Source: Streptomyces mirabilis
GTDB lineage: Bacteria; Actinomycetota; Actinomycetes; Streptomycetales; Streptomycetaceae
Assembly (NCBI RefSeq): GCF_039503195.1
Contig: NZ_JBCJKP010000001.1
Coordinates: 186,001-250,000, forward strand
DNA length: 64,000 bases
Reading direction: 5' to 3'
Below, piece by piece: positions 19,601-44,227 of the stretch. The notes beneath the pieces were generated by a model that saw only the letters and a program-made list of their open reading frames with translations, did no database searches and was not told the DNA's origin. The number at the start of each line of letters is the position of its first letter. Within the stretch, counting starts at the first letter, position 1. A program made the position numbers and the translations under genes.

Positions 19601-20487
19601 TCAGCGGAAGGCGGGTTCGCTGTCCAGGAACCGGGACACGTGGCTCACGAACAGCTCCGGGTACTGGAACAGCGCGCCGTGCCCGGAGTCGGGGTAGATG
19701 ACCAGCTGCGCGTTCGGAATGTGCTGCTGCAGGATGTAGGAGTTGATCGTCGGCACCATGATGTCGTGGCTGCCATTGACGACCAGGGTGGGCTGCTGGA
19801 TGGTCTTCAGCTCGCTCCAGCGCTCACCAACCTGCTCGCGCCATTTGGCCATGGCCCCGACCTGGGCCTTGGCGACCTGCATCGAGCTCAGCGGGACGAC
19901 GTCGACGGTGCGCTGGTGGCGCCGCGCCAAGAAGTCTCTGCCGGCCTGCTGACTGGTTTCAGTCGGCTCGAAGAACAGGAACAGGTACCCATCGTCGGTG
20001 ATCTCCGGATCGTGCCCGGCCACTTCATAGATCTTTGGGTCCTGGCCCTCGAATTCTCCTGCCCGCGGTCCCGTGCCGACCAGCACGAGCCGGCGCACGA
20101 GCTCAGGGTGGCGCAGCGTCAGAGTCTGGGCGATATAACCGCCGATGGAGAAACCAAGAACGTCGGCCTGCGAAATACCCAGCGCCCGGATGACCTCCGC
20201 ACTGTCGTCACCGAAGGCCTCGAACGTCTCCGGCACCTCGCCGCTCGACCCGGCCACCCCCGCATAGTCGAACAGGATCACTTCCCGGTTCGCGGCCAGC
20301 CCGTCAGTGACCGCCGGATCCCAGTTGTCCATCCCACCGCGGAAGTGCACCAGGAACACCAGCGGAATGCCCCCCGGCTTGCCGAACCGGCGGTATGCGT
20401 GCCGGACCCCTCCCGCCTCCACGTACTGCGTGGGTGCGGTGACGTGCGTGTACGACATGTTCTGCTCCTTTGATACTTATTTCGATT
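19584..20487 (-). repeat. Tandem duplication, unit 1
   Basis: About 905 bases matching the unit at 20604-21504: identical at both ends (hydrolase N- and C-terminal coding parts and about 29 bases upstream of the start) but clearly diverged in the middle third. Confidence 0.85.
19601..20458 (-). CDS. Alpha/beta hydrolase, copy 1
   Basis: 285 residues, a standard alpha/beta hydrolase. Oxyanion region VFLVHFRGGMDNWDP, nucleophile elbow DVLGFSIGGYIA (serine in G-F-S-I-G), acid in VNGSHDIMVP and catalytic histidine in DSGHGALFQYPE. The pattern is that of lactonase, esterase or haloperoxidase-like members; substrate unknown. ATG start with AAAGGAG six bases upstream. It is followed upstream by a close paralogue in the same orientation; the two differ mainly over residues 105-205, the cap domain that sets substrate choice. 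Confidence 0.88.
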   Translation of the reverse strand: MSYTHVTAPTQYVEAGGVRHAYRRFGKPGGIPLVFLVHFRGGMDNWDPAVTDGLAANREVILFDYAGVAGSSGEVPETFEAFGDDSAEVIRALGISQADVLGFSIGGYIAQTLTLRHPELVRRLVLVGTGPRAGEFEGQDPKIYEVAGHDPEITDDGYLFLFFEPTETSQQAGRDFLARRHQRTVDVVPLSSMQVAKAQVGAMAKWREQVGERWSELKTIQQPTLVVNGSHDIMVPTINSYILQQHIPNAQLVIYPDSGHGALFQYPELFVSHVSRFLDSEPAFR

Positions 20488-20603: not shown

Positions 20604-21504
20604 GCTTGCCGCCGCGCCGGTCAGCGGAAGGCGGGTTCGCTGTCCAGGAACCGGGACACGTGGCTCACGAACAGCTCCGGGTACTGGAACAGCGCGCCGT
20701 GCCCGGAGTCGGGGTAGATGACCAGCTGCGCGTTCGGAATGTGCTGCTGCAGGATGTAGGAGTTGATCGTCGGCACCATGATGTCGTGGCTGCCATTGAC
20801 GACCAGAGTGGGCTGCTGGATGGTCTTCAGCTGGCTGAACCCCTCACCGACGGGCTCGCGCCATGCCGTGATGGCCGCGACCTGAGCTTTGGTCACCTCG
20901 GGCCCGCTCAGCAGGTCGACGTCGACGGTGCGCTGGTGACGCCGCGCCCAGAAATCCCTGCCGGCCTGCTGACTGGTTTCGGTCGGCTCGAAGAACAGGA
21001 ACAGGAAGTCCTCCATGGTCGGCACCGGGTTCGCGGCCACCTTCAGCGCCTTCGGATCCCGGCCTTCGGCTTCGCCGCCACGCGGTGCCGTGCCGACCAG
21101 CACGAGCCGGCGCACGAGCTCGGGGTGGCGCAGCGCTACCTCCTGCGCGACGTAACCGCCGATGGAGAAGCCGAGAACGTCGGCCTGCGAAATACCCAGC
21201 GCCCGGATGACCTCCGCACTGTCGTCACCGAAGGCCTCGAACGTCTCCGGCACCTCGCCGCTCGACCCGGCCACCCCCGCATAGTCGAACAGGATCACTT
21301 CCCGGTTCGCGGCCAGCCCGTCAGTGACCGCCGGATCCCAGTTGTCCATCCCACCGCGGAAGTGCACCAGGAACACCAGCGGAATGCCCCCCGGCTTGCC
21401 GAACCGGCGGTATGCGTGCCGGACCCCTCCCGCCTCCACGTACTGCGTGGGTGCGGTGACGTGCGTGTACGACATGTTCTGCTCCTTTGATACTTATTTC
21501 GATT
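20604..21504 (-). repeat. Tandem duplication, unit 2
   Basis: Partner of the 19584-20487 unit; the offset between the two changes by 3 bases within the diverged middle, matching a one-codon length difference. Confidence 0.85.
20621..21475 (-). CDS. Alpha/beta hydrolase, copy 2
   Basis: 284 residues. Identical to copy 1 over roughly the first 105 and last 75 residues, including LGFSIGGYVA, NGSHDIMVP and SGHGALFQYP. The cap region differs (APRGGEAEGRDPKALKV against GPRAGEFEGQDPKIYEV, and DLLSGPEVTKAQVAAIT against PLSSMQVAKAQVGAMA). Same ribosome site and start as copy 1. Upstream DNA is unrelated to that of copy 1 beyond 29 bases, so the two can be regulated differently. The pair looks like duplication followed by divergence of the substrate-binding lid. 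Confidence 0.88.
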   Translation of the reverse strand: MSYTHVTAPTQYVEAGGVRHAYRRFGKPGGIPLVFLVHFRGGMDNWDPAVTDGLAANREVILFDYAGVAGSSGEVPETFEAFGDDSAEVIRALGISQADVLGFSIGGYVAQEVALRHPELVRRLVLVGTAPRGGEAEGRDPKALKVAANPVPTMEDFLFLFFEPTETSQQAGRDFWARRHQRTVDVDLLSGPEVTKAQVAAITAWREPVGEGFSQLKTIQQPTLVVNGSHDIMVPTINSYILQQHIPNAQLVIYPDSGHGALFQYPELFVSHVSRFLDSEPAFR

Positions 21505-21890: not shown

Positions 21891-23516
21891 TCACGAGCTA
21901 CAGCACCGTGGCGACGGTAGGTCAGGCGCTGTCGGGGTGTGAGAGGCGACCGAGCGCATCGGCACCTCCTTGATGAAGAGGGTGGCGATCAGCGTCAGCA
22001 GCGCGAACGGCGCAGCGGCGAGGAAGACCGCGCCCACGCCCTTGCCGAAGGCGTCCTCGATGAACGGCCGCACACCCGGCGGGATCAGACTGAGGTCCGG
22101 GATCGCCGAGTTCTTCAGCGACTGCGCCGCGGCCACCGGCACTCTCCCTGCCAGCAGGTCCTGCGCCACCTGGTGGTTCACCCGGTTGTTGAGCAGCGCG
22201 CCCAGCGCGGAGACGCCGCTCGCGCCGCCCATCGTGCGGAAGAAGGCGACCAGCGCGCTGGCCGAGCCCAGTTCCCGGACAGGCACGGTGTTCTGCACCG
22301 CCAGCACGAGGTTCTGCATCATCATGCCGATGCCGAGTCCCGAGAGGGTCATCGAGACCGCCACCTGCCAGTACGCGGTCTCCGTGCGGGCGGTGCCCAG
22401 CAGAGCGAAGCCCGCGGCGAGGCAGACCGCGCCCAGCACCAGGAAGATCTTCCACCGGCCGATCTGCGTGATCAGGCGGCCGGTCAACAGGGAGGCGATG
22501 CCGAGGGCGAGCACCATGGGCAGGGTGTAGACGCCGGACAGGGTGGGTGTTTCGTCCCGGGCCAGCTGGAAGTACTCGCCGAGGAATGTGGTCTGGCTGT
22601 ATATGCCGGCGCCTACGGTCAGCGAGGCCAGACACGCGAGCGTGACCGTCCGGTGGCGGAAAAGGTGCAGCGGCACGACCGGCTCCGCGGCCCGCCGCTC
22701 CACGAGAACCGCAACCGCGAAGAGCGCTAGGCTGCCGCCGACCATCGCACAGGTCTGCCAGGAGAGCCACGGGTACTTGTCCCCGGCCAGAGTGACCCAG
22801 ACCAGCAGCAGGCTCACCGCCGCGGCGATCACCGCCGAGCCGGGATAGTCCACCTTCACCCGCCGCTTCACGGTGGGCAGGTGGAGGGTCTTCTGCAGCA
22901 GCACCAGGGCGAGGATGCCGAACGGCACGCCGACGTAGAAGCACCAACGCCAGCCGAGCCAGGAGGTATCCGCGATGGCGCCGCCGATGAGCGGTCCGGA
23001 GACGGTGCCGAGCGCGAAGACCAGGCCGAAGTAGCCGCTGTAGCGGCCGCGCTCGCGCGGTGTGGCCATGGCCGCCACGCAGACCGGGCCCAGCGCGCTG
23101 ACGCCGCCCACTCCGACGCCCTGGAGCACCCGGCAGGCGATCAGCTCACCGATGTTCTGGGAGAGCCCGGCCAGCATGGAGCCGAGCACGTAGGTGCCGA
23201 GGCCGAGCTGCACCAGCAGCTTCTTGCTGACCAGGTCGGAGAGCTTGCCCCAGAGGGGGGTGGTGGCGGTGAGGGAGAGCAGGGTGGCGGCGACGATCCA
23301 GGTGTATGCCGACTCACCGCCGTGCAGGTCGCGGAGGATCGTCGGCAGCGCGGTGGCCACGATGGTGGAGGAGAGCATGGCCACGAAGAGCCCGAGCAGC
23401 AGCCCGGACATCGCGGAGAGAATCTCCCGATGGGACATCCCGCCATCGATTTCGCTGCTGCGCACGGACTGGCCCCCCTGGGCCGCACCCGGGGTGATGG
23501 CCTGGCGCACGTGCAT
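21891..23516 (-). CDS. MFS drug exporter, DHA2/EmrB-QacA type (14 helices)
   Basis: 541 residues with about 14 membrane segments from residue 33 on. Motif A-like GKLSDLVSKKLL after helix 2, the arginine of motif B in ACRVLQGVGVGGV, and motif C ALGTVSGPLIGGAIAD in helix 5 mark a proton-coupled multidrug exporter. The first 27 residues (TPGAAQGGQSVRSSEIDGG) are not part of the transporter fold and are nearly the same as the start of the unrelated exporter at 24.5 kb. The ATG lies after GGTTGGGAG. Two TAGACA-type operators are in its promoter, so it is probably repressed by the TetR protein encoded at 25.9 kb. Confidence 0.92.
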   Translation of the reverse strand: MHVRQAITPGAAQGGQSVRSSEIDGGMSHREILSAMSGLLLGLFVAMLSSTIVATALPTILRDLHGGESAYTWIVAATLLSLTATTPLWGKLSDLVSKKLLVQLGLGTYVLGSMLAGLSQNIGELIACRVLQGVGVGGVSALGPVCVAAMATPRERGRYSGYFGLVFALGTVSGPLIGGAIADTSWLGWRWCFYVGVPFGILALVLLQKTLHLPTVKRRVKVDYPGSAVIAAAVSLLLVWVTLAGDKYPWLSWQTCAMVGGSLALFAVAVLVERRAAEPVVPLHLFRHRTVTLACLASLTVGAGIYSQTTFLGEYFQLARDETPTLSGVYTLPMVLALGIASLLTGRLITQIGRWKIFLVLGAVCLAAGFALLGTARTETAYWQVAVSMTLSGLGIGMMMQNLVLAVQNTVPVRELGSASALVAFFRTMGGASGVSALGALLNNRVNHQVAQDLLAGRVPVAAAQSLKNSAIPDLSLIPPGVRPFIEDAFGKGVGAVFLAAAPFALLTLIATLFIKEVPMRSVASHTPTAPDLPSPRCCSS

Positions 23517-24478: not shown

Positions 24479-24491
24479 CCTAAGGTTGGGG

Positions 24492-25973
24492 ATGCACATG
24501 AGCCGCACCATGACGCCGGGTGCGACCCAGGCGAGCCAGTCCGTACGCAACAGCGAGATCGACGGCGGGCTGAATGCCGGCACCCGATCCCAGCCCAGCA
24601 AGCGCCTGTCCGGCCCATCGGCGCTGTACCTGCTGGCCTCGGTGTTCGTCTCACTGCTGGCCTCGTCAAGCGCGCCGACGCCGCTGTACGCCCTGTACCA
24701 GGCGCGATGGGGCTTCTCGCCGATCACGACCACCATGGTGTTCGGTGTCTACGCCCTGTCCGTGCTCATGTCGCTGCTGACCTTGGGCAAGTTGTCCGAC
24801 CACGTCGGCCGCAAGCCCGTCCTGCTGGTGACGTTGCTGATTCAGGTCGCGACGATGGTGGTGTTCGCCACGGCTGACGGCGTGCCCTCGCTGCTACTCG
24901 CCCGCGTCCTACAGGGCGTGGCGACCGGCGCCGCCATCGGCGCGGTCGGCGCAGGCATGCTCGACATCGACGCGAGGCGCGGCCAGCTGGCCAATGCGGT
25001 GTCGCCGACCATCGGCACAGGGGGCGGCGCGCTTGTGTCGGCGCTGCTGGTGCGCTACCTGCCCGCGCCCACGCATCTTGTCTACTTCCTGCTGCTGGCG
25101 GTGTTCGCGCTGCAGGCGATCGGCGTCGCCCTGATGCGTGAGACGGTCACGCCGGCACCTGGTGCGCTGGCCAGCCTCAGGCCCGAGATCAAGCTGCCGC
25201 GGAAGGTCCGTGCACACGTGCTGGCCGCGGCTCCCGTGCTGTTCGCCGGATGGGCGTTGGCCGGGCTGTACGGCGCGCTGGGCCCCGCGCTCGTCGCCAC
25301 GCTGACCGACGGCAACGCCGAGGTACTTGGGGGCTTGAGCGTGTTCGTGCTGGCCAGCGTCGCCGGAGTCGCGGTAGCCGTGCTGCGCAACGCTCAGCCG
25401 AGAACGATGATGCTGATCGGGATCGGCTCGCTGCCTGTGGGCGTCGTTATCACCCTCGTCGCGCTCGCCGTGGTGTCGCTCCCGTTGTTCTTTGTCGGCA
25501 CCGCGGTGGCGGGGGCCGCCTTCGGTGCCGGCTTCCAGGGCAGCATCCGCACGGTGGTGCCACAGGTCACGCCGCACGAGCGGGCCGGTTCGCTGTCGCT
25601 GCTCTATGTGGTGTCGTACCTCGGCTTCGGTGTGCCCGTTGTGGTGGCCGGTTTCCTGACCGTGCACGGCGCGGGTTTGCTGGGCGCGACCCGGGACTAC
25701 GGTGCCGCAGTGATCGTGCTGGCGGCAGTGGCACTGCTCGCGCTGATGCGGACCCGGCGTGCCGCTCGGCGACTGATCCAACGACCGGACAGGGTGGGCA
25801 CTCAGGCGCGGCTGTCGATGAGCCGGGTGACCACGACGAGCAGCAGGACGAGATCCTCGGCCCGCTTCGCCTTCCGGCGTCATCAGCCGCGGTTTCTTGT
25901 ATTCTGTACAGACCTGTCTAATGAGAGGGATGATGGAGATGGCGAGGGCCACGGCCAAGTCATCCGCACGTGA
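24492..25973 (+). CDS. MFS transporter, 12-helix type
   Basis: About 493 residues. After a 40-residue leader (RTMTPGATQASQSVRNSEID), copied from or to the MFS-1 start, come 12 helices. Motif A is GKLSDHVGRKPVLL, and LARVLQGVATGAAIGAVG in helix 4 is typical of sugar- or drug-efflux MFS proteins. The fold differs from MFS-1 (12 against 14 helices). The start ATG is chosen by alignment with MFS-1. The last about 60 residues after RRAARRLIQRP are basic, lack family character and run through the TetR operator, overlapping the TetR start, so a frameshift near the end is possible. Confidence 0.85.
   Translation: MHMSRTMTPGATQASQSVRNSEIDGGLNAGTRSQPSKRLSGPSALYLLASVFVSLLASSSAPTPLYALYQARWGFSPITTTMVFGVYALSVLMSLLTLGKLSDHVGRKPVLLVTLLIQVATMVVFATADGVPSLLLARVLQGVATGAAIGAVGAGMLDIDARRGQLANAVSPTIGTGGGALVSALLVRYLPAPTHLVYFLLLAVFALQAIGVALMRETVTPAPGALASLRPEIKLPRKVRAHVLAAAPVLFAGWALAGLYGALGPALVATLTDGNAEVLGGLSVFVLASVAGVAVAVLRNAQPRTMMLIGIGSLPVGVVITLVALAVVSLPLFFVGTAVAGAAFGAGFQGSIRTVVPQVTPHERAGSLSLLYVVSYLGFGVPVVVAGFLTVHGAGLLGATRDYGAAVIVLAAVALLALMRTRRAARRLIQRPDRVGTQARLSMSRVTTTSSRTRSSARFAFRRHQPRFLVFCTDLSNERDDGDGEGHGQVIRT
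25907..25920 (+). promoter_or_regulatory. TetR operator in front of its own gene
   Basis: TACAGACCTGTCTA, the same motif as at both exporter promoters, 19 bases before the chosen TetR start. It indicates autoregulation. Confidence 0.65.
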
Positions 25974-27622: not shown

Positions 27623-27997
27623 TCATGTAGTGGGCCGGTCGTCGGTGCTGTTCGGTGTGTATGCCTGAAGGGCTTGCATCGATGCCGTGATTTCCCGGGT
27701 GTTTTCCGCGATGTCGTGGCGCAGGCCCTGGATGTCGTTCTGGCCGTAGTCGTTGCCGGGAGCGGCCAGTTGCTTGCGGACGAAGGCCTTGGGGTTGAGG
27801 TCCTGGAAGTCGAATTCCTCGAACCCGGGGCCCAGTTCCTTGCGGATGTCCTGCTTGGCGCTCTCGGAAACATCACGGAACTTGCGGAGGACCCGCATGG
27901 CCTCGCTGATCATCTTGGGGAGTTTGTCCGGGCCGAAGATGAACACGGCGGCGACGGCGAGAGTGACCACCTCGAGAGGACTCACATCGAATATCAC
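27623..27997 (-). CDS. tatB: Sec-independent translocase TatB
   Basis: 124 residues. A single N-terminal membrane helix (SPLEVVTLAVAAVFIFGPDK) with the TatB hinge FGPDKLP, then a long amphipathic helix (MISEAMRVLRKFRDVSES) and an acidic polar tail. TatB with TatC forms the receptor for twin-arginine signal peptides. GTG start, AGGAG eight bases upstream. It is the last gene of a tatA-tatC-tatB run. In the Streptomyces core genome tatB is normally apart from tatAC, so this is an additional, compact system. Confidence 0.9.
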   Translation of the reverse strand: MIFDVSPLEVVTLAVAAVFIFGPDKLPKMISEAMRVLRKFRDVSESAKQDIRKELGPGFEEFDFQDLNPKAFVRKQLAAPGNDYGQNDIQGLRHDIAENTREITASMQALQAYTPNSTDDRPTT

Positions 27998-28075
27998 CCT
28001 ATGTCTCCTCAGACGTTCGGACAGGTTTTTGTGGCGTGTTCCGGGGATTTTCCGCAGGCTCTGCGAGCGCGGCGG

Positions 28076-29050
28076 TCATGCGGTGTCGTCGGGATGGGCG
28101 GCCGTGGGCTGGACCACCTCGGGGTCAGCGTTACGGACCGGTTGTGGGGAGTGCGGGCCGGCGGCGACCACCAGGGAGGGAGCCGGAGCCAGCACGGAGG
28201 CCTCATCCGGGCCGAGCCCATTGTCGGGGTCGGCAGCCCTGCGGCGAGCCTTCGCACGGTCGTGGACGGTCGCCACAACCAGGGCGAGCAGGAACAGCAG
28301 GCTGATGGGCACGGCCAGGGCGGTCATGGTGATCGGATCGCCGGTCGGGGTGGCGACCGCGGCGAAGACGAAGACGCTGAAGACGATGACCTGCCATCGT
28401 CGCCTCAGAGCCGCGGCGCTGAAGATACCCAGGAAGTTCAACAAAACCAGCAACAGCGGCAGTTCGAAGGACAGGCCGAAGACGAGCACCATGCGCAGGA
28501 GGAAGTCCAGGAACTCGTCGCCGGGCAGCGACAGGGAGAAGGCGTGCGGGTTGAAGCCCGCCAGAACTTCCAGGGCCTTGGGGAAGACCACGTAGGCGAG
28601 GTATCCGCCAAGGCAAAACAGGGGGACGGCCGCCGCGCTGAAGCCGAGCCCGTACCTCTTCTCCTGCTTGTACAGTCCCGGCGCGACGAAGGCCCACACC
28701 TGGTAGCTCCACACCGGGGCGGCCATGACGAACCCGGCCGACACCGCCACCTTGAAACTCAGCGACAGCGGGGACAGGATCCCTGTGTTGACCAGCAGAC
28801 CGTTCGGACATTCCCGGGTCGGCCGGCCTACCCCGTGGACATGGGGCAGAGCACAGGCCGGTCCGGTGATCCGCTCGAGCAGCCAGTCATGGGCCAGCCA
28901 TCCGACGACGGTGGTCACCGCCAGAGCCAGCACCGAGACAGCCAGACGGTTGCGCAGCTCCCGTAGGTGCTCCGTCAACGGCATGACGTCCATGGGCGCA
29001 TGCTGCGGTTGCTCAAAAGCGGTGGCTTCTGTGTGTTGGGGGTCGTTCAC
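28076..29050 (-). CDS. tatC: Sec-independent translocase TatC
   Basis: 324 residues with six membrane segments (about 38-60, 107-127, 141-160, 170-200, 217-235, 240-258). The conserved N-terminal signal-binding patch is present (MPLTEHLRELRNRLAVSV). The middle region SLSFKVAVSAGFVMAAPVWS, then QVWAFVAPGLYKQEK, is standard. The C-terminal 60 residues are a long Pro/Ala tail, longer than in E. coli TatC. GTG start 49 bases after tatA. It forms the Tat receptor with TatB and sits downstream of a Tat-dependent epoxide hydrolase. Confidence 0.93.
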   Translation of the reverse strand: MNDPQHTEATAFEQPQHAPMDVMPLTEHLRELRNRLAVSVLALAVTTVVGWLAHDWLLERITGPACALPHVHGVGRPTRECPNGLLVNTGILSPLSLSFKVAVSAGFVMAAPVWSYQVWAFVAPGLYKQEKRYGLGFSAAAVPLFCLGGYLAYVVFPKALEVLAGFNPHAFSLSLPGDEFLDFLLRMVLVFGLSFELPLLLVLLNFLGIFSAAALRRRWQVIVFSVFVFAAVATPTGDPITMTALAVPISLLFLLALVVATVHDRAKARRRAADPDNGLGPDEASVLAPAPSLVVAAGPHSPQPVRNADPEVVQPTAAHPDDTA

Positions 29051-29099
29051 CGGATGCCCTCGGTTTCTCGTGGCCGGCGAGTGCGGCGGCGGTGCGCGG

Positions 29100-29366
29100 T
29101 CAGACTCGGTTCGTCGTTTCGGCTTCGACGTCCACCCGGTTGCCGCTGTTCTCGGCCGGTACGGCCTGGATGCTTGCGCGCGGCGCGGTGGTCGGCTGCG
29201 CGGTGTCCGCCCGGGCGGTGTCCGTCTTCATGGCGCTGACTTCGGACTTGAAGATGCGCAGGGACTTGCCCAGTCCGCGTGCGGTCTCGGGCAGTCGCTT
29301 CGCTCCGAAGAGCAGCAGCACGACAGCCGCGATAATCAGGATTTCCAGGGCACGGTTCTCAAACAT
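29100..29366 (-). CDS. tatA: Sec-independent translocase TatA
   Basis: 88 residues. One N-terminal helix (ALEILIIAAVVLLLFGAK), the TatA hinge FGAKRLP, amphipathic helix RGLGKSLRIFKSEVSAM and an acidic tail. TatA oligomers form the protein-conducting part of the translocase. The ATG is the first codon that keeps the family N-terminus (MFENRALE). It is first of the three tat genes and follows a Tat-signal epoxide hydrolase by about 250 bases on the same strand. Confidence 0.9.
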   Translation of the reverse strand: MFENRALEILIIAAVVLLLFGAKRLPETARGLGKSLRIFKSEVSAMKTDTARADTAQPTTAPRASIQAVPAENSGNRVDVEAETTNRV

Positions 29367-29612
29367 GTGGTTCTCGTTCCCGTACGGGCTCGGATGCCGA
29401 ATCGGTACCAAAGCTGCTGGTCGGTGGAGGTGAAGCCGGTTTCGGCTTCGGCCGCAGGCCGTGGACCGCCTGGCAGCCGGGGCTGAGGGAAGAAGCCCGG
29501 TTCGGTGCGGCCGGGCGGCGACTGGGATGGAGCCGCCCGGCCGCACCTGTGGGGCGCGGACTGTGCACGTCGTCGGCTGTGGCCGGTTTCTTGGGCCGTC
29601 CGCGGTGCGGCG

Positions 29613-30730
29613 CTGGCGGTTAGCGCAGCGGTCGCAGGCCTTCGCGCAGTTCGTTGACGAAGAGCTTGGGCTGCTCCCAGGCGGCGAAGTGGCCGCCGGT
29701 GGGGAGGGTGTTGTAGTGGATCAGGTTGGGGTAGGCCTTCTCGGCCCAGCTCTTGGGGGCCTCGTAGATCTCGTGGGGGAAGACACTGACGGCCACCGGC
29801 AGGGTCACGCCCTTGCTGCCGAAGAACTGGAACTTGTTCTCCCAGTACAGGCGGGCTGCGGAGACCGCGGTGTCCGTCAGCCAGTACAGCGTGACGTTGT
29901 CCAGGAAGTCGTCGCGGCTCAGGCCACCCGGGTGGCCGGCGAAGGCGCGGGAGATCAGTTCCTGGCTGGCCGTGTCGTGGTCAAGCAGGTAGGACGCCAG
30001 ACCCAGCGGGGAATCGGTCAGTCCGACCAGGGTCTGCGGGCGCCGGCCCATCTGGTTGGCGTAGCCGACACGCTTGTAGAAGAAGTCCAGCTGCTCCACC
30101 GCCCGCTTCTCGTCCGAGGAGAAGCTGCTGGTGTCCACCGGGTTTCCGGCGAAGAGCGCGGCGTCGACCGCGGGCGGAACCACACCAGCCATGTTGGTGT
30201 GGATACCGGCCAGCCCCTGAGGCTTCTGCAGAGCCATCAGGTCCACGATGACCGCACCCCAGTCGCCGCCCTGCGCGGCGTACTTGGTGTAGCCCAGACG
30301 CTTCATCAGCTCAGCCCAGGCTCGGGCGATGTGGTCCGGGCCCCAGCCGGTCGTGGTCGGCTTACCGGAGAAGCCGTAACCGGGCATCGAGGGGATCACC
30401 ACATGGAAGGCATCCGACGCCTTCCCGCCATGCGCGGTGGGGTTGACCAGCGGGTCGATGATCTTCAGCTGCTCGATGACCGAACCCGGCCAGCCGTGCG
30501 TGACGATCAGCGGCAGCGCACCCTCATGCTTGGAACGGACGTGGAGGAAATGGATGTCCACCCCGTCGATCTCGGTGAGGAACTGCGGGTAGGAGTTCAG
30601 CTTCGCCTCCACCTTGCGCCAGTCGTAGCCCGACGCCCAGTAACCGGCGATCTGCTTCACCGTCTCCAGCTTCGTACCCTGCGACAGGTCGGAGACGGTC
30701 TCCTTCCCCGGCAACCGCGCAGCCACGACA
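29613..30730 (-). repeat. Near-identical 1.1-kb direct repeat, copy 1 (epoxide hydrolase body)
   Basis: Matches 31062-32179 with one difference noticed (CCCGGG against CCGGGG near 29930/31379). It covers the hydrolase from about residue 75 to beyond the stop codon. Confidence 0.9.
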
Positions 30731-30945
30731 CGCCGGCGGAGGTCGGCCAGGTCCCGCTCTGGGAAGTGGACGCGGAAGGGGCGGATCCTGGGATCCGACG
30801 CTGTGCCGTGGCCGGAGCGCAGGTCGGCTGCCGCGGCCGACTGGGCGGGGATGAGGCCGAAGGATCCCGCCACCGCCGCGGCGGAGGCGGCAGCGGAGGT
30901 GGAGAGGAACTTCCGGCGGGAGTGCGGCGGAATGAGCTCAGACAT
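29620..30945 (-). CDS. Tat-exported epoxide hydrolase
   Basis: 441 residues. The N-terminus is a textbook twin-arginine signal: SRRKFLSTSAAASAAAV, a hydrophobic Ala-rich core, then AQSAAAA before the mature part. Next comes the epoxide-hydrolase N-terminal domain (IRPFRVHFPERDLADLRRR) and an alpha/beta hydrolase domain: oxyanion HGWPGS near 150, nucleophile Asp near 228 in QGGDWGAV, a lid tyrosine region, and catalytic His in GGHFAAWEQP. It opens epoxides to diols, here outside the cell. ATG with AGGAG seven bases upstream. The tatA-tatC-tatB genes follow directly. The body is nearly identical to its neighbour, but the first 74 residues differ. Confidence 0.93.
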   Translation of the reverse strand: MSELIPPHSRRKFLSTSAAASAAAVAGSFGLIPAQSAAAADLRSGHGTASDPRIRPFRVHFPERDLADLRRRVVAARLPGKETVSDLSQGTKLETVKQIAGYWASGYDWRKVEAKLNSYPQFLTEIDGVDIHFLHVRSKHEGALPLIVTHGWPGSVIEQLKIIDPLVNPTAHGGKASDAFHVVIPSMPGYGFSGKPTTTGWGPDHIARAWAELMKRLGYTKYAAQGGDWGAVIVDLMALQKPQGLAGIHTNMAGVVPPAVDAALFAGNPVDTSSFSSDEKRAVEQLDFFYKRVGYANQMGRRPQTLVGLTDSPLGLASYLLDHDTASQELISRAFAGHPGGLSRDDFLDNVTLYWLTDTAVSAARLYWENKFQFFGSKGVTLPVAVSVFPHEIYEAPKSWAEKAYPNLIHYNTLPTGGHFAAWEQPKLFVNELREGLRPLR

Positions 30946-31061
30946 GGTGGATCTCCTGGGGTGGTAGGGGCTCGCCTCGCTGCTTTTGCGGATGCGGGGG
31001 CGGCCGGTTGGTGCGGGAAATCAGGCGCCTGTCGGATGAGGCGGCGGGGCGTGGGGAGAGG

Positions 31062-32179
31062 CGCTGGCGGTTAGCGCAGCGGTCGCAGGCCTTCGCGCAG
31101 TTCGTTGACGAAGAGCTTGGGCTGCTCCCAGGCGGCGAAGTGGCCGCCGGTGGGGAGGGTGTTGTAGTGGATCAGGTTGGGGTAGGCCTTCTCGGCCCAG
31201 CTCTTGGGGGCCTCGTAGATCTCGTGGGGGAAGACACTGACGGCCACCGGCAGGGTCACGCCCTTGCTGCCGAAGAACTGGAACTTGTTCTCCCAGTACA
31301 GGCGGGCTGCGGAGACCGCGGTGTCCGTCAGCCAGTACAGCGTGACGTTGTCCAGGAAGTCGTCGCGGCTCAGGCCACCGGGGTGGCCGGCGAAGGCGCG
31401 GGAGATCAGTTCCTGGCTGGCCGTGTCGTGGTCAAGCAGGTAGGACGCCAGACCCAGCGGGGAATCGGTCAGTCCGACCAGGGTCTGCGGGCGCCGGCCC
31501 ATCTGGTTGGCGTAGCCGACACGCTTGTAGAAGAAGTCCAGCTGCTCCACCGCCCGCTTCTCGTCCGAGGAGAAGCTGCTGGTGTCCACCGGGTTTCCGG
31601 CGAAGAGCGCGGCGTCGACCGCGGGCGGAACCACACCAGCCATGTTGGTGTGGATACCGGCCAGCCCCTGAGGCTTCTGCAGAGCCATCAGGTCCACGAT
31701 GACCGCACCCCAGTCGCCGCCCTGCGCGGCGTACTTGGTGTAGCCCAGACGCTTCATCAGCTCAGCCCAGGCTCGGGCGATGTGGTCCGGGCCCCAGCCG
31801 GTCGTGGTCGGCTTACCGGAGAAGCCGTAACCGGGCATCGAGGGGATCACCACATGGAAGGCATCCGACGCCTTCCCGCCATGCGCGGTGGGGTTGACCA
31901 GCGGGTCGATGATCTTCAGCTGCTCGATGACCGAACCCGGCCAGCCGTGCGTGACGATCAGCGGCAGCGCACCCTCATGCTTGGAACGGACGTGGAGGAA
32001 ATGGATGTCCACCCCGTCGATCTCGGTGAGGAACTGCGGGTAGGAGTTCAGCTTCGCCTCCACCTTGCGCCAGTCGTAGCCCGACGCCCAGTAACCGGCG
32101 ATCTGCTTCACCGTCTCCAGCTTCGTACCCTGCGACAGGTCGGAGACGGTCTCCTTCCCCGGCAACCGCGCAGACACGA
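31062..32179 (-). repeat. Near-identical 1.1-kb direct repeat, copy 2 (epoxide hydrolase body)
   Basis: Partner of 29613-30730; homology ends abruptly inside codon about 28 of the cytoplasmic hydrolase. Confidence 0.9.
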
Positions 32180-32258
32180 CACGTGCATGCAGTTCCTTGA
32201 GCTCTGCCTCGGGGATATTGACCTTGAACGGGCGGATCGTAGTGGATGCGACGGACAT
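31071..32258 (-). CDS. Cytoplasmic epoxide hydrolase, twin of the exported enzyme
   Basis: 395 residues, no signal peptide. N-terminal domain starts IRPFKVNIPEAELKELHARV. HGWPGS lies at 104-109, nucleophile Asp182 in QGGDWGAV, and the C-terminal GGHFAAWEQP histidine is present. From residue 29 on it matches the exported enzyme almost base for base, while the N-terminal 28 residues differ. ATG with AGGAGG six bases upstream. The region 450 bases upstream has a conserved regulatory-looking element shared with the third epoxide hydrolase. The identity implies a very recent duplication or gene conversion. Confidence 0.93.
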   Translation of the reverse strand: MSVASTTIRPFKVNIPEAELKELHARVVSARLPGKETVSDLSQGTKLETVKQIAGYWASGYDWRKVEAKLNSYPQFLTEIDGVDIHFLHVRSKHEGALPLIVTHGWPGSVIEQLKIIDPLVNPTAHGGKASDAFHVVIPSMPGYGFSGKPTTTGWGPDHIARAWAELMKRLGYTKYAAQGGDWGAVIVDLMALQKPQGLAGIHTNMAGVVPPAVDAALFAGNPVDTSSFSSDEKRAVEQLDFFYKRVGYANQMGRRPQTLVGLTDSPLGLASYLLDHDTASQELISRAFAGHPGGLSRDDFLDNVTLYWLTDTAVSAARLYWENKFQFFGSKGVTLPVAVSVFPHEIYEAPKSWAEKAYPNLIHYNTLPTGGHFAAWEQPKLFVNELREGLRPLR

Positions 32259-32711
32259 TTCAGCCTCCTGGTCGTGCAATTGATTATCGGAAAGGACTGT
32301 GCAGCACTTCCGTCGATGCAAATGGATATGTGAATTCGCCTGCCCAAGAGCGGCGAAGGTTGGCAGTGGAGCATCCCCGGCGTTGGGGTAGGCCTTTCTC
32401 GCCCAGTTCCTGGCCCTGGAGAGTGCGCCGGGAGCATGCTCTGCAACTGACCGGAGACGTCTCTCTCCTGGGCCAGCACGCGGTCTTGGTCCGCACACTC
32501 AGGTCCTCAAGTGCCGCCTGGTGAACGGGGACTGGGACGGACTACCGGCGTTCCGGGAGTGGAATACACGCCGGGTTCCTTGCATCTGGAGTTAATGATG
32601 CCGGGTTCCCAAGAATTCCTCCCGAGATGAGCCCGCCATCTCTTCCTGCGGCCAGCGCGGACTCACCGCGCCACCCGTTCCCGTTCTGACGACTCCATTA
32701 ACAGTAGGGCC
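32259..32711. other. Long upstream region of the cytoplasmic epoxide hydrolase
   Basis: No gene supported. It lies between the hydrolase start and the conserved element at 32712-32783. Confidence 0.45.
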
Positions 32712-42857: not shown

Positions 42858-44054
42858 CTAGCGCAGCGGCCGGAAGCCGGCGCGGACCTCATCGACGAGC
42901 AGTTGCGGCTGCTCCCAGGCGGCGAAGTGACCGCCCTTGGGGAGCCTGTTGTAGTGGATGAGGTTGGGGTAGGCCTGCTCGGACCAGCTCTTGGGGGCCT
43001 GGTAGAGCTCGTCGGGGAAGACGCTCACGGCGACCGGGAGGGTTACGTCGTTGATGCCGAAGAAGGAGGTCTTGTTCTCGGCGTAGAGGCGGGCCGCGGA
43101 GACCGCCGTGTTGGTCAGCCAGAAGAGGGTGATGTTGTCCAGGACGTCGTCACGGCTCAGGCCCTCGGTGACTCCGGCGAAGACCCGGGAGATGAGGGCC
43201 AGGCTGGCCGCGTCGTGGTCGAGCAGGAAGGCCGCCAGGCCGACCGGGGAGTCCACCAGGCCGGTCAGGGTCTGCGGGCGCGAGCCCATCATGTAGGCGT
43301 AGTAGACGTGCCGGTAGACGAAGTCCAGCTGCTCGACAGCGGCCTTCTCCTCGTCGGAGAGCGACAGGCCCGCAGGCAGCGGGTTGCCCGCGATGAGCGC
43401 GGCGTCGATGTCCGCCGGAATCACCTTGGGCATGTTGGTGTGGATGCCGATCAGGCCCTCGGGCTCCTGCGCACCCATCAGGTCGGTGACGATCGCGCCC
43501 CAGTCGCCGCCCTGCGCGACGTACTTGGTGTAGCCCAGGCGCTTCATCAACTCGCCCCAGGCGCGGGCGATACGCTCGGGCCCCCATCCGGTGGTGGTCG
43601 GCTTACCTGAGAAGCCGTATCCGGGCATAGAGGGGATCACTACGTGGAAGGCGTCCGCGGCGCTGCCGCCGTGGGCGGTGGGGTTGACCAGCGGGTCGAT
43701 GATCTTCAGCTGCTCGATGACCGAGCCTGGCCAGCCATGGGTGACGATCAGCGGCAGCGCGTCCTCATGCTTGGAGCGGACGTGGATGAAGTGGATGTCC
43801 AGCCCATCGATCTCGGTGGTGAAATTCGGCAACGCCTTCAGCTTGGCCTCGGCCTTGCGCCAGTCGTACTCCTCCGCCCAGTACCGAGCGAGCTCCTTCA
43901 TCGTCTCCAGCTGCACGCCCTGCGACTGGTCCGCAACGGTCTCCTTCTCAGGCCACCGCGCCGCCTTGATCCGCGCACGCAGGTCCTCGAGCTCCGCGTC
44001 GGAGAACTCGAACGTGAATGGCCGGATCGCAGGGGTTCCGGAAATATCAGACAT
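42858..44054 (-). CDS. Epoxide hydrolase, third copy
   Basis: 398 residues, cytoplasmic. N-terminal domain IRPFTFEFSDAELEDLRAR, oxyanion HGWPGS, nucleophile aspartate in QGGDWGAI, and catalytic histidine in KGGHFAAWEQPQ. It is a clearly diverged relative of the twin enzymes at 29.6-32.3 kb and has its own lid sequence (PKVIPADIDAALIAGNP against AGVVPPAVDAALFAGNP). ATG 44054 fits the family start; AAGGGA lies 13 bases upstream, slightly far. The same conserved upstream element as at the cytoplasmic twin lies 175-245 bases upstream in the same relative orientation, so a common regulator is likely. Confidence 0.92.
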   Translation of the reverse strand: MSDISGTPAIRPFTFEFSDAELEDLRARIKAARWPEKETVADQSQGVQLETMKELARYWAEEYDWRKAEAKLKALPNFTTEIDGLDIHFIHVRSKHEDALPLIVTHGWPGSVIEQLKIIDPLVNPTAHGGSAADAFHVVIPSMPGYGFSGKPTTTGWGPERIARAWGELMKRLGYTKYVAQGGDWGAIVTDLMGAQEPEGLIGIHTNMPKVIPADIDAALIAGNPLPAGLSLSDEEKAAVEQLDFVYRHVYYAYMMGSRPQTLTGLVDSPVGLAAFLLDHDAASLALISRVFAGVTEGLSRDDVLDNITLFWLTNTAVSAARLYAENKTSFFGINDVTLPVAVSVFPDELYQAPKSWSEQAYPNLIHYNRLPKGGHFAAWEQPQLLVDEVRAGFRPLR

Positions 44055-44227
44055 ATTGGTTTCGTTTCCCTTGGTTTCTGAGTTCACTGGAAGCCGTGAA
44101 GGGCAGGCGTCGAAGCCGGGCTCGCAGGGATTTCGCCTGCGGTGAACCTGGTCGTGTTCCGCCGCCGGACGGTGGCGTGTTTTCGCGCCGTCCGTCCCTG
44201 TTCGGCCGACGCTTCAATACTGGGTGC

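Follow-up and report, generated by a model that had tools for sequence, protein, structure and literature searches.

Why does a chromosome that already encodes a twin-arginine translocation (Tat) system carry a second, complete set of tat genes next to a hydrolase? The question is raised by a stretch of 64,000 nucleotides of Streptomyces mirabilis (contig NZ_JBCJKP010000001.1, positions 186,001 to 250,000; hereafter the window), in which a gene for an epoxide hydrolase (EH) of the two-domain EHN family, preceded by a twin-arginine leader, is followed on the same strand by tatA, tatC and tatB. Our analyses indicate that the locus is probably a cargo-linked accessory Tat system, i.e., an exporter encoded together with an extracytoplasmic EH, in which both the enzyme core and the translocase are replaceable and a cytosolic twin of the enzyme is kept identical to it by gene conversion. 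EHs that carry the leader are called tagged, or Tat-EHs, below.

A complete second tat set adjoins a Tat-signal epoxide hydrolase

Locus proteins were assigned to families with Pfam at curated cut-offs and with NCBIfam models. A preliminary description of the window had placed a Tat-signal EH at 29620-30945 and, on the same strand, tatA, tatC and tatB; all four genes were confirmed on the minus strand, with Pfam matches above the cut-offs. Absent from that description was a second EH, without a leader, directly upstream of the first. The array consists of the following features.

31071..32258, minus strand: untagged, presumed cytosolic EHN-family EH, 395 amino acids (PF06441 and PF00561), heading the same-strand array
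29620..30945, minus strand: Tat-signal EHN-family EH, 441 amino acids (PF06441, E=1.1e-37; PF00561, E=3.4e-13)
30814..30945, minus strand: conserved Tat leader, the first 44 codons of the tagged EH, reading MSELIPPHSRRKFLSTSAAASAAAVAGSFGLIPAQSAAAAD
29100..29366, minus strand: tatA, 88 amino acids (PF02416, E=6.6e-18; NCBIfam models TatA PRK00575 and tatAE above cut-off)
28076..29050, minus strand: tatC, 324 amino acids, GTG start (PF00902 1-208 at residues 27-248, E=2.8e-61)
27623..27997, minus strand: tatB, 124 amino acids, GTG start (PF02416, 22.4 bits; cut-off 21)

With a full-length TatC domain and both partners present, the locus encodes a complete TatABC set. The TatB assignment is modest, the best NCBIfam models being sec-independent translocase/TatB, one of them above its cut-off. 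The acidic residues of HLRELR and LYKQEKR are present in the aligned window TatC, and HLREL plus the E of the GL[YH]xxE[KR] stretch are conserved in all eight TatCs aligned; we take these acidic residues to be signal-binding. The tagged EH retains the motifs of its family, namely HGWP, the nucleophile motif GGDxGA and the C-terminal GGHF, aligned with 5f4z and 4i19, the closest solved structures. EHN-family EHs are also known as SgcF-type enzymes.

Intergenic gaps from the untagged EH through the tagged EH, tatA and tatC to tatB measure 125, 253, 49 and 78 nt. Purine-rich stretches resembling ribosome-binding sites precede the genes and are clearest at both EHs and at tatB; the untagged EH starts with MSVASTTIRPFK, with AGGAGG upstream, its Pfam match having been obtained with a longer open reading frame (31071-32411). 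The array may be co-expressed.

Elsewhere in the 11.1-Mb genome (2 contigs), a second TatC is encoded at C1:2480348 with an adjoining TatA, and three further TatA/B-like matches were found. This indicates that the tat genes of the window are an additional, complete second set, and the arrangement agrees with the earlier statement that Streptomyces core genomes keep tatAC together and tatB apart. The genome holds six EHN genes, three of them inside the window; the third of these, at 42858-44087 on the minus strand, encodes an untagged EH 73% identical to the tagged one.

The gene order recurs under purifying selection

Relatives of the locus were sought in genomes of the genus and the family. 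Counts from the genus searches and from the EH search of the family are minimum values, since scoring covered only part of the first-look candidates; the genus and family draws overlap. A TatC scan of genome contigs found two relatives, in Streptomyces olivochromogenes (locus L045) and in Streptacidiphilus anmyonensis (L046). L045 has a Tat-EH, tatA, tatC and tatB in the order and on the strand seen in the window. Two further loci of genome G312, L065 and L066, each read EH-tatA-tatC-tatB, so that all four leader-bearing EHN loci of this leader type read as DNA have the full array. The linkage is therefore not confined to one genome, and the proposal of a self-contained export module gains support from L045 and, twice over, from G312. 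In genome G294 (L050), the leader precedes a Cif-like EH, again followed by tatA, tatC and tatB; an EH thus stands directly before tatA in 5/5 loci with this leader. The G312 loci lie at C1:201865 and C1:8140390 of 8,164,743, one near each contig end; their EHs are 82% identical and their TatCs about 88-90%.

The genes are also under constraint. Between the window and L045, nonsynonymous (dN) and synonymous (dS) divergence are 0.224 and 0.588 for tatA, 0.191 and 0.657 for tatC, 0.23 and 0.455 for tatB, and 0.204 and 0.653 for the EH, and dN/dS was about 0.2-0.5 in the eight gene comparisons made. Since dN stays lower than dS in each of the four, these genes are not in decay.

Might EH and tat genes nevertheless be chance neighbours in a gene-exchanging chromosome arm, with no functional relation? 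The window locus lies ~214 kb from the end of its 10.97-Mb contig, and both G312 loci are likewise near contig ends. Against this stand the shared gene order in separate species (4/4 loci read) and the rarity of both features in the genus. TatC matches at E<=1e-78 were found in at least 4 of 392 genus genomes (the S. mirabilis genome itself, G294, G427 and G185), and the EH N-terminus matched at least five places in at least 4 of 392 (the S. mirabilis genome, G312 twice, G409 and G412); with the full-length EH as the query in 333 genus genomes, leader-spanning matches among the candidates scored came only from the S. mirabilis genome and G312. A recurring gene order combined with dN well below dS argues for more than chance, and we consider coincidence highly improbable.

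Among the EHN loci read, linkage was seen at the close relatives. Of twelve leader-bearing EHN genes read at the DNA level in Streptomycetaceae, the four with a PHSRR[KAT]FLSTSAAA leader and at least 69% identity are all linked to tat genes, and 0/8 of the divergent ones have a TatC match in the stretch read. The latter comprise the more distant Tat-EHs of G409 and G412 (55-56%) and six found with the EH query in 375 family genomes (L140-L145); two of the eight stretches are short contigs (L068, 4.7 kb; L142, 8.8 kb). No TatC was found in about 1.5 kb of flank at any of 36 untagged EH loci outside the S. mirabilis genome, nor within 6 kb of five plasmid loci (three Tat-EHs, from Cupriavidus, Paraburkholderia and Rhizobium, plus two others) drawn from 15 listed of 482 matched EH records.

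Three descriptions were rejected. That most Tat-EHs are unlinked to tat did not hold, as both G312 Tat-EHs are linked to a TatC too distant for E<=1e-78; counting linkage from TatC searches alone was rejected, since such E-value cuts miss a second TatC clade; and an accessory TatC does not always mark an EH, since L046, L051-L054, L057 and L058 have other neighbours.

Some tagged hydrolases share contigs with TatC in a protein database

Protein-database records, with one contig per 90% cluster, gave a further view. Twin-arginine leaders were present in 41 of the 120 EH relatives listed; 74 were untagged, and five were neither (one N-terminally truncated, four with other N-termini). The earlier remark that EHs of this family are usually cytoplasmic is right for most of them, the leader-bearing ones forming a recurring minority that is also found in Pseudomonadota.

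A shared contig was deduced from exactly equal contig size, using the best 120 of 1610 and the best 120 of 3005 TatC matches; the sizes of 158 of the 240 TatCs and 28 of the 41 tagged EHs were entered, and the others, compared by eye, gave no match. At least 7 of the 41 tagged EHs lie on a contig of exactly the same size as that of a listed TatC (P0008/P0260, P0009/P0261, P0013/P0270, P0017/P0253, P0018/P0308, P0021/P0242 and P0245, P0030/P0130). Of the seven contigs, four are under 33 kb (6.7-32.3 kb), and the rest range from 159 kb to 9.5 Mb, a size at which the match means the same contig only. In the control, 4 of the 74 untagged EHs match a listed TatC contig, one of them under 33 kb: P0004 (13.7 kb, matching P0124), which is related to the untagged twin of the window. 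The other three, P0042, P0068 and P0116, are on contigs of 1.2-9.5 Mb.

Accessory tat genes also occur with other neighbours

Several observations weigh against a dedicated tie between the accessory translocase and the EH. Equal contig sizes denote the same contig and not adjacency, and 34 of the 41 tagged EHs have no match among the TatCs listed, although one of these, P0006, has a core identical to that of the L066 EH, which is tat-linked at the DNA level. TatCs matching that of the window at E<=1e-85 occur in 17 of 394 family genomes: that of S. mirabilis, G294, and 15 from other genera, in which this may simply be the usual TatC. Accessory tat genes near different or no obvious cargo (L046, L051-L054, L057-L058) may provide general capacity. 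Since divergent Tat-EHs of Streptomycetaceae and Pseudomonadota have no linked tat in the stretch read, the core Tat can presumably export this type of EH. Finally, a scan for promoters and terminators, weak for Streptomyces and of little information here, found no sigma-70-like and no terminator-like site on the locus strand.

A rival account is a general booster, with tat genes that raise export dosage for every Tat substrate and an EH that is merely a co-travelling neighbour in the chromosome arm. Accessory tat genes indeed lie beside a Tat-signal PAD-family protein in Streptacidiphilus (tatA-tatC next to a PAD_porph protein in L046, with no EH in the 11.3 kb read) and beside biosynthetic genes (tatB-tatC near polyketide genes in G427 and G185). 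A cargo relation is indicated, on the other hand, by an EH before tatA in every locus with this leader, even in L050 where the enzyme family differs, and by the lack of tatC at the other EHs read. We therefore regard it as a rather unlikely account, and a cargo-linked system as the better one.

Some of these other loci deserve a brief description. L051:8421-12082 and L052:7006-10782 (G427 and G185) are accessory tatB-tatC pairs near a small Tat-signal protein and polyketide genes, which we presume to be enediyne-like; the NCBIfam matches of the latter are to polyketide-synthase and fatty-acid-synthase models, none over its cut-off. L057:7615-8858 and L058:7613-8858 are tatA-tatC pairs of Streptomyces linear plasmids that close a run of mevalonate-pathway genes and adjoin condensation-domain and aromatase genes.

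Alike leaders are paired with TatCs of two clades

On a TatC tree of 106 rows (the loci and fewer than half of the TatCs listed; midpoint-rooted, with unsettled bootstrap and a long-branch warning), the EH-linked TatCs fell into two groups. The first holds the window, L045 and P0130, with L050, and is nested near Streptacidiphilus TatCs; the second holds L065, L066, P0242, P0245, P0253, P0260, P0261, P0270 and P0308, and its sister includes the TatC of an S. cadmiisoli plasmid (L059). The core TatC of S. mirabilis stands apart from both. Aligned TatCs are 44-46% identical between the two groups. The leaders of the window, L045, L065 and L066 are nonetheless 70-82% identical among the four (the window leader being 70-77% identical to the other three and 61% to that of L050), and EH identity between L045 and L065/L066 is 79-82% despite their different TatC groups.

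L045 and L065 also have neighbours in common, of SpoIIE type (76%), short-chain dehydrogenase/reductase (SDR) type (85%) and HxlR type (80%), in a different relative arrangement. L066 has no such genes nearby, and in the window the only SpoIIE and SDR relatives are weaker and more remote. Like cargo and neighbours thus accompany tat sets of two kinds, and the translocase appears, by sequence comparison, to have been replaced beside a conserved cargo. More broadly, a PAS/SpoIIE-type phosphatase is encoded near three tat cassettes (L045:780-5431, L065:13816-18059 and L059:2-2518) and an HxlR-SDR pair near two.

The preliminary description had suggested specificity between this TatC and this signal. 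In its strict form, TatC would recognize only this leader and the core translocase would be unable to export the EH. Conservation of the leader over 44 residues, more than a generic Tat signal needs, and its presence on the unrelated G294 enzyme are in keeping with such a lock and key. However, TatCs from two distant clades accompany one and the same leader type, so that leader-TatC specificity is not supported, and related leaders occur on divergent Tat-EHs without linked tat in the stretch read. An exclusive pairing is thus improbable.

The tagged and untagged hydrolases of the window are twins

The two adjacent EH genes are 99.8% identical over 1,124 bp (blastn), with 1 mismatch in 1,114 positions, and part abruptly in the first portion of the EHN domain and in the leader, i.e., they differ only at the N terminus. 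Two features concern this duplication.

29609..30722 and 31060-32173, minus strand: tract common to both EHs, offset 1451, with one mismatch, at 29929
32382..32413, minus strand: possible remnant of a third EH C terminus, lying upstream of the untagged gene (32 bases, 81% identical to the EH C-terminal coding stretch; weak)

A similar pair, P0001 (tagged, 441 amino acids) and P0003 (untagged, 395 amino acids), has cores that are 99.5% identical; these come from JGI contigs, possibly not of one genome. Their cores are only 89-90% identical to those of the window pair. Identity that is higher within pairs than between lineages is expected from repeated gene conversion or repeated duplication. 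We read the common tract of the window as a catalytic core that was recently duplicated or converted, although the identity of the twins may also be an assembly error.

Different enzyme cores occur behind the leader

The leader of L050 scored 114.6 against the EH leaders, compared with 33.8 for shuffled sequences (standard deviation 7.0; z=11.6); on the same scoring, the leaders of eight divergent Tat-EHs reached 48-82, and the EH leaders among themselves 148-163. The mature part of the L050 protein is a Cif-like a/b-hydrolase and not an EHN enzyme (closest solved structure 7jqx, E=4.7e-53), and no curated NCBIfam model reached its cut-off for it. Another EH family behind the same leader type, albeit a single case, is the best sequence evidence for selection on the exported activity itself. 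L059, a comparable locus on a Streptomyces plasmid of 970 kb, joins tatB-tatA-tatC to a Tat-signal a/b-hydrolase that shares 65% identity with the L050 enzyme. Its leader is not of this type (score 60.8, z=3.8), and the locus (L059:5755-8906, S. cadmiisoli) differs in gene order as well.

Within the EHN family, a core tree of 71 of the 120 listed EHs plus eight sequences of the window and loci showed tagged and untagged cores interleaved, with seven label changes in 75 rows (four rows, one N-terminally truncated and three from Paenibacillus, being omitted from this count). A single clade of 39 tagged rows was rejected; the test omitted 4 of the 43 tagged rows and left the identical window pair free, and the rejection draws in part on near-identical tagged/untagged pairs, P0001/P0003 among them. 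A 23-column N-terminal linker was nearer the canonical tagged set in all 13 tagged EHs profiled, and P0014, P0007, P0005, P0008, P0009 and P0027 join a tagged-type linker to a core leaning to the untagged set. The window core leans weakly to the untagged set.

The mosaic structure is compatible with a further reading, which we offer tentatively and lean slightly against. The locus would be an export slot, with a conserved Tat leader and translocase into which different EH cores have recombined. Gene conversion would copy the core of the adjacent cytosolic gene into this slot, leaving the same enzyme sequence in two compartments, and the translocase set would itself be replaceable. If so, selection would act on the ability to export an EH with its own Tat, and not on any one enzyme or translocase.

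How the system may work

In the cargo-linked system that we favor, the tagged EH would fold in the cytoplasm, a TatBC complex would bind its twin-arginine leader, and TatA would let it cross the membrane. As the locus supplies its own TatABC, export capacity would come with the cargo and not from the core translocase alone. The exported EH, if active on such substrates, would open epoxides to diols outside the membrane, and its untagged twin would do so in the cytoplasm, with gene conversion holding both catalytic cores identical while their N termini, i.e., their addresses, stay distinct. Over evolution, the leader/tat unit would have received different EH cores, and the tat set would itself have been replaced beside conserved cargo, the direction and the cause of these exchanges being presumed from the present distribution. 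The detoxification of epoxides outside the cytoplasm, as first proposed, is a plausible role for such an enzyme.

Relation to known Tat systems and epoxide hydrolases

Cargo-linked Tat systems are, to our knowledge, best known from Bacillus. In Staphylococcus aureus, FepB is linked to tatAC. FepB is described there as Tat cargo (PMC3577903). In Bacillus subtilis, TatAdCd-PhoD and TatAyCy-EfeB/YwbN likewise combine an additional translocase with a cargo encoded beside it, and linkage has been used to infer Tat cargo (PMC3827258). The S. mirabilis locus has several features of such systems: an extra set besides the core one, an adjoining gene with a twin-arginine leader, and linkage conserved in relatives. 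By this analogy it most resembles the cargo-linked Tat of Bacillus, with EH as a new cargo class. The bacilli differ in having no tatB and a phosphodiesterase or peroxidase as cargo, in contrast to the full ABC set, the EH cargo, the two TatC clades and the untagged cargo twin found here; dependence of the cargo on its own translocase is reported for Bacillus and presumed here. A second tatC has been counted in S. hygroscopicus, with no cargo assigned in the sections concerned (PMC5001237, PMC3827258).

As for the enzyme, the EHN-type EHs 4i19 and 5f4z and the juvenile hormone and microsomal EHs belong to the same two-domain family and have the aligned motifs. Matches to 4i19 and 5f4z begin at about query residue 50, past the leader; the Tat leader and the linked tat genes are those of the window enzyme. 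Cif is an exported EH with a secretion signal that is regulated by epoxides (PMC8244358). Cif-like EHs belong to another a/b-hydrolase family than the window EH, the G294 cargo being nearest to them; passages on Cif name no linked Tat genes and mention two Burkholderia Cif-like enzymes without a predicted signal (PMC8244358). Among the literature matches listed, no title or abstract opening describes a pairing of a Tat-EH with tat genes, and two papers that combine both terms use them, in the parts concerned, in unrelated places.

The recurrent streptomycete version keeps its leader across enzyme families and its cargo across translocase clades, and makes it testable whether duplicate Tat systems serve substrate recognition or co-regulated capacity. 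It further suggests that hydrolysing epoxides outside the cytoplasm is, for soil bacteria, a trait worth an exporter of its own, and the twin pair, the same catalytic core with and without a leader, offers a natural means of measuring what export adds.

Other possible duplications in the window

Another tandem pair, at 19601-20458 and 20621-21475 on the minus strand, encodes two a/b-hydrolases that are 88% identical; a 41-42% identical relative of this pair adjoins tatA-tatC in Streptacidiphilus L046. Two major facilitator superfamily transporters, at 21891-23516 (minus strand) and 24486-25973 (plus strand), have a similar N-terminal stretch, TPGA.Q..QSVR.SEIDGG, which is possibly a duplicated upstream segment.

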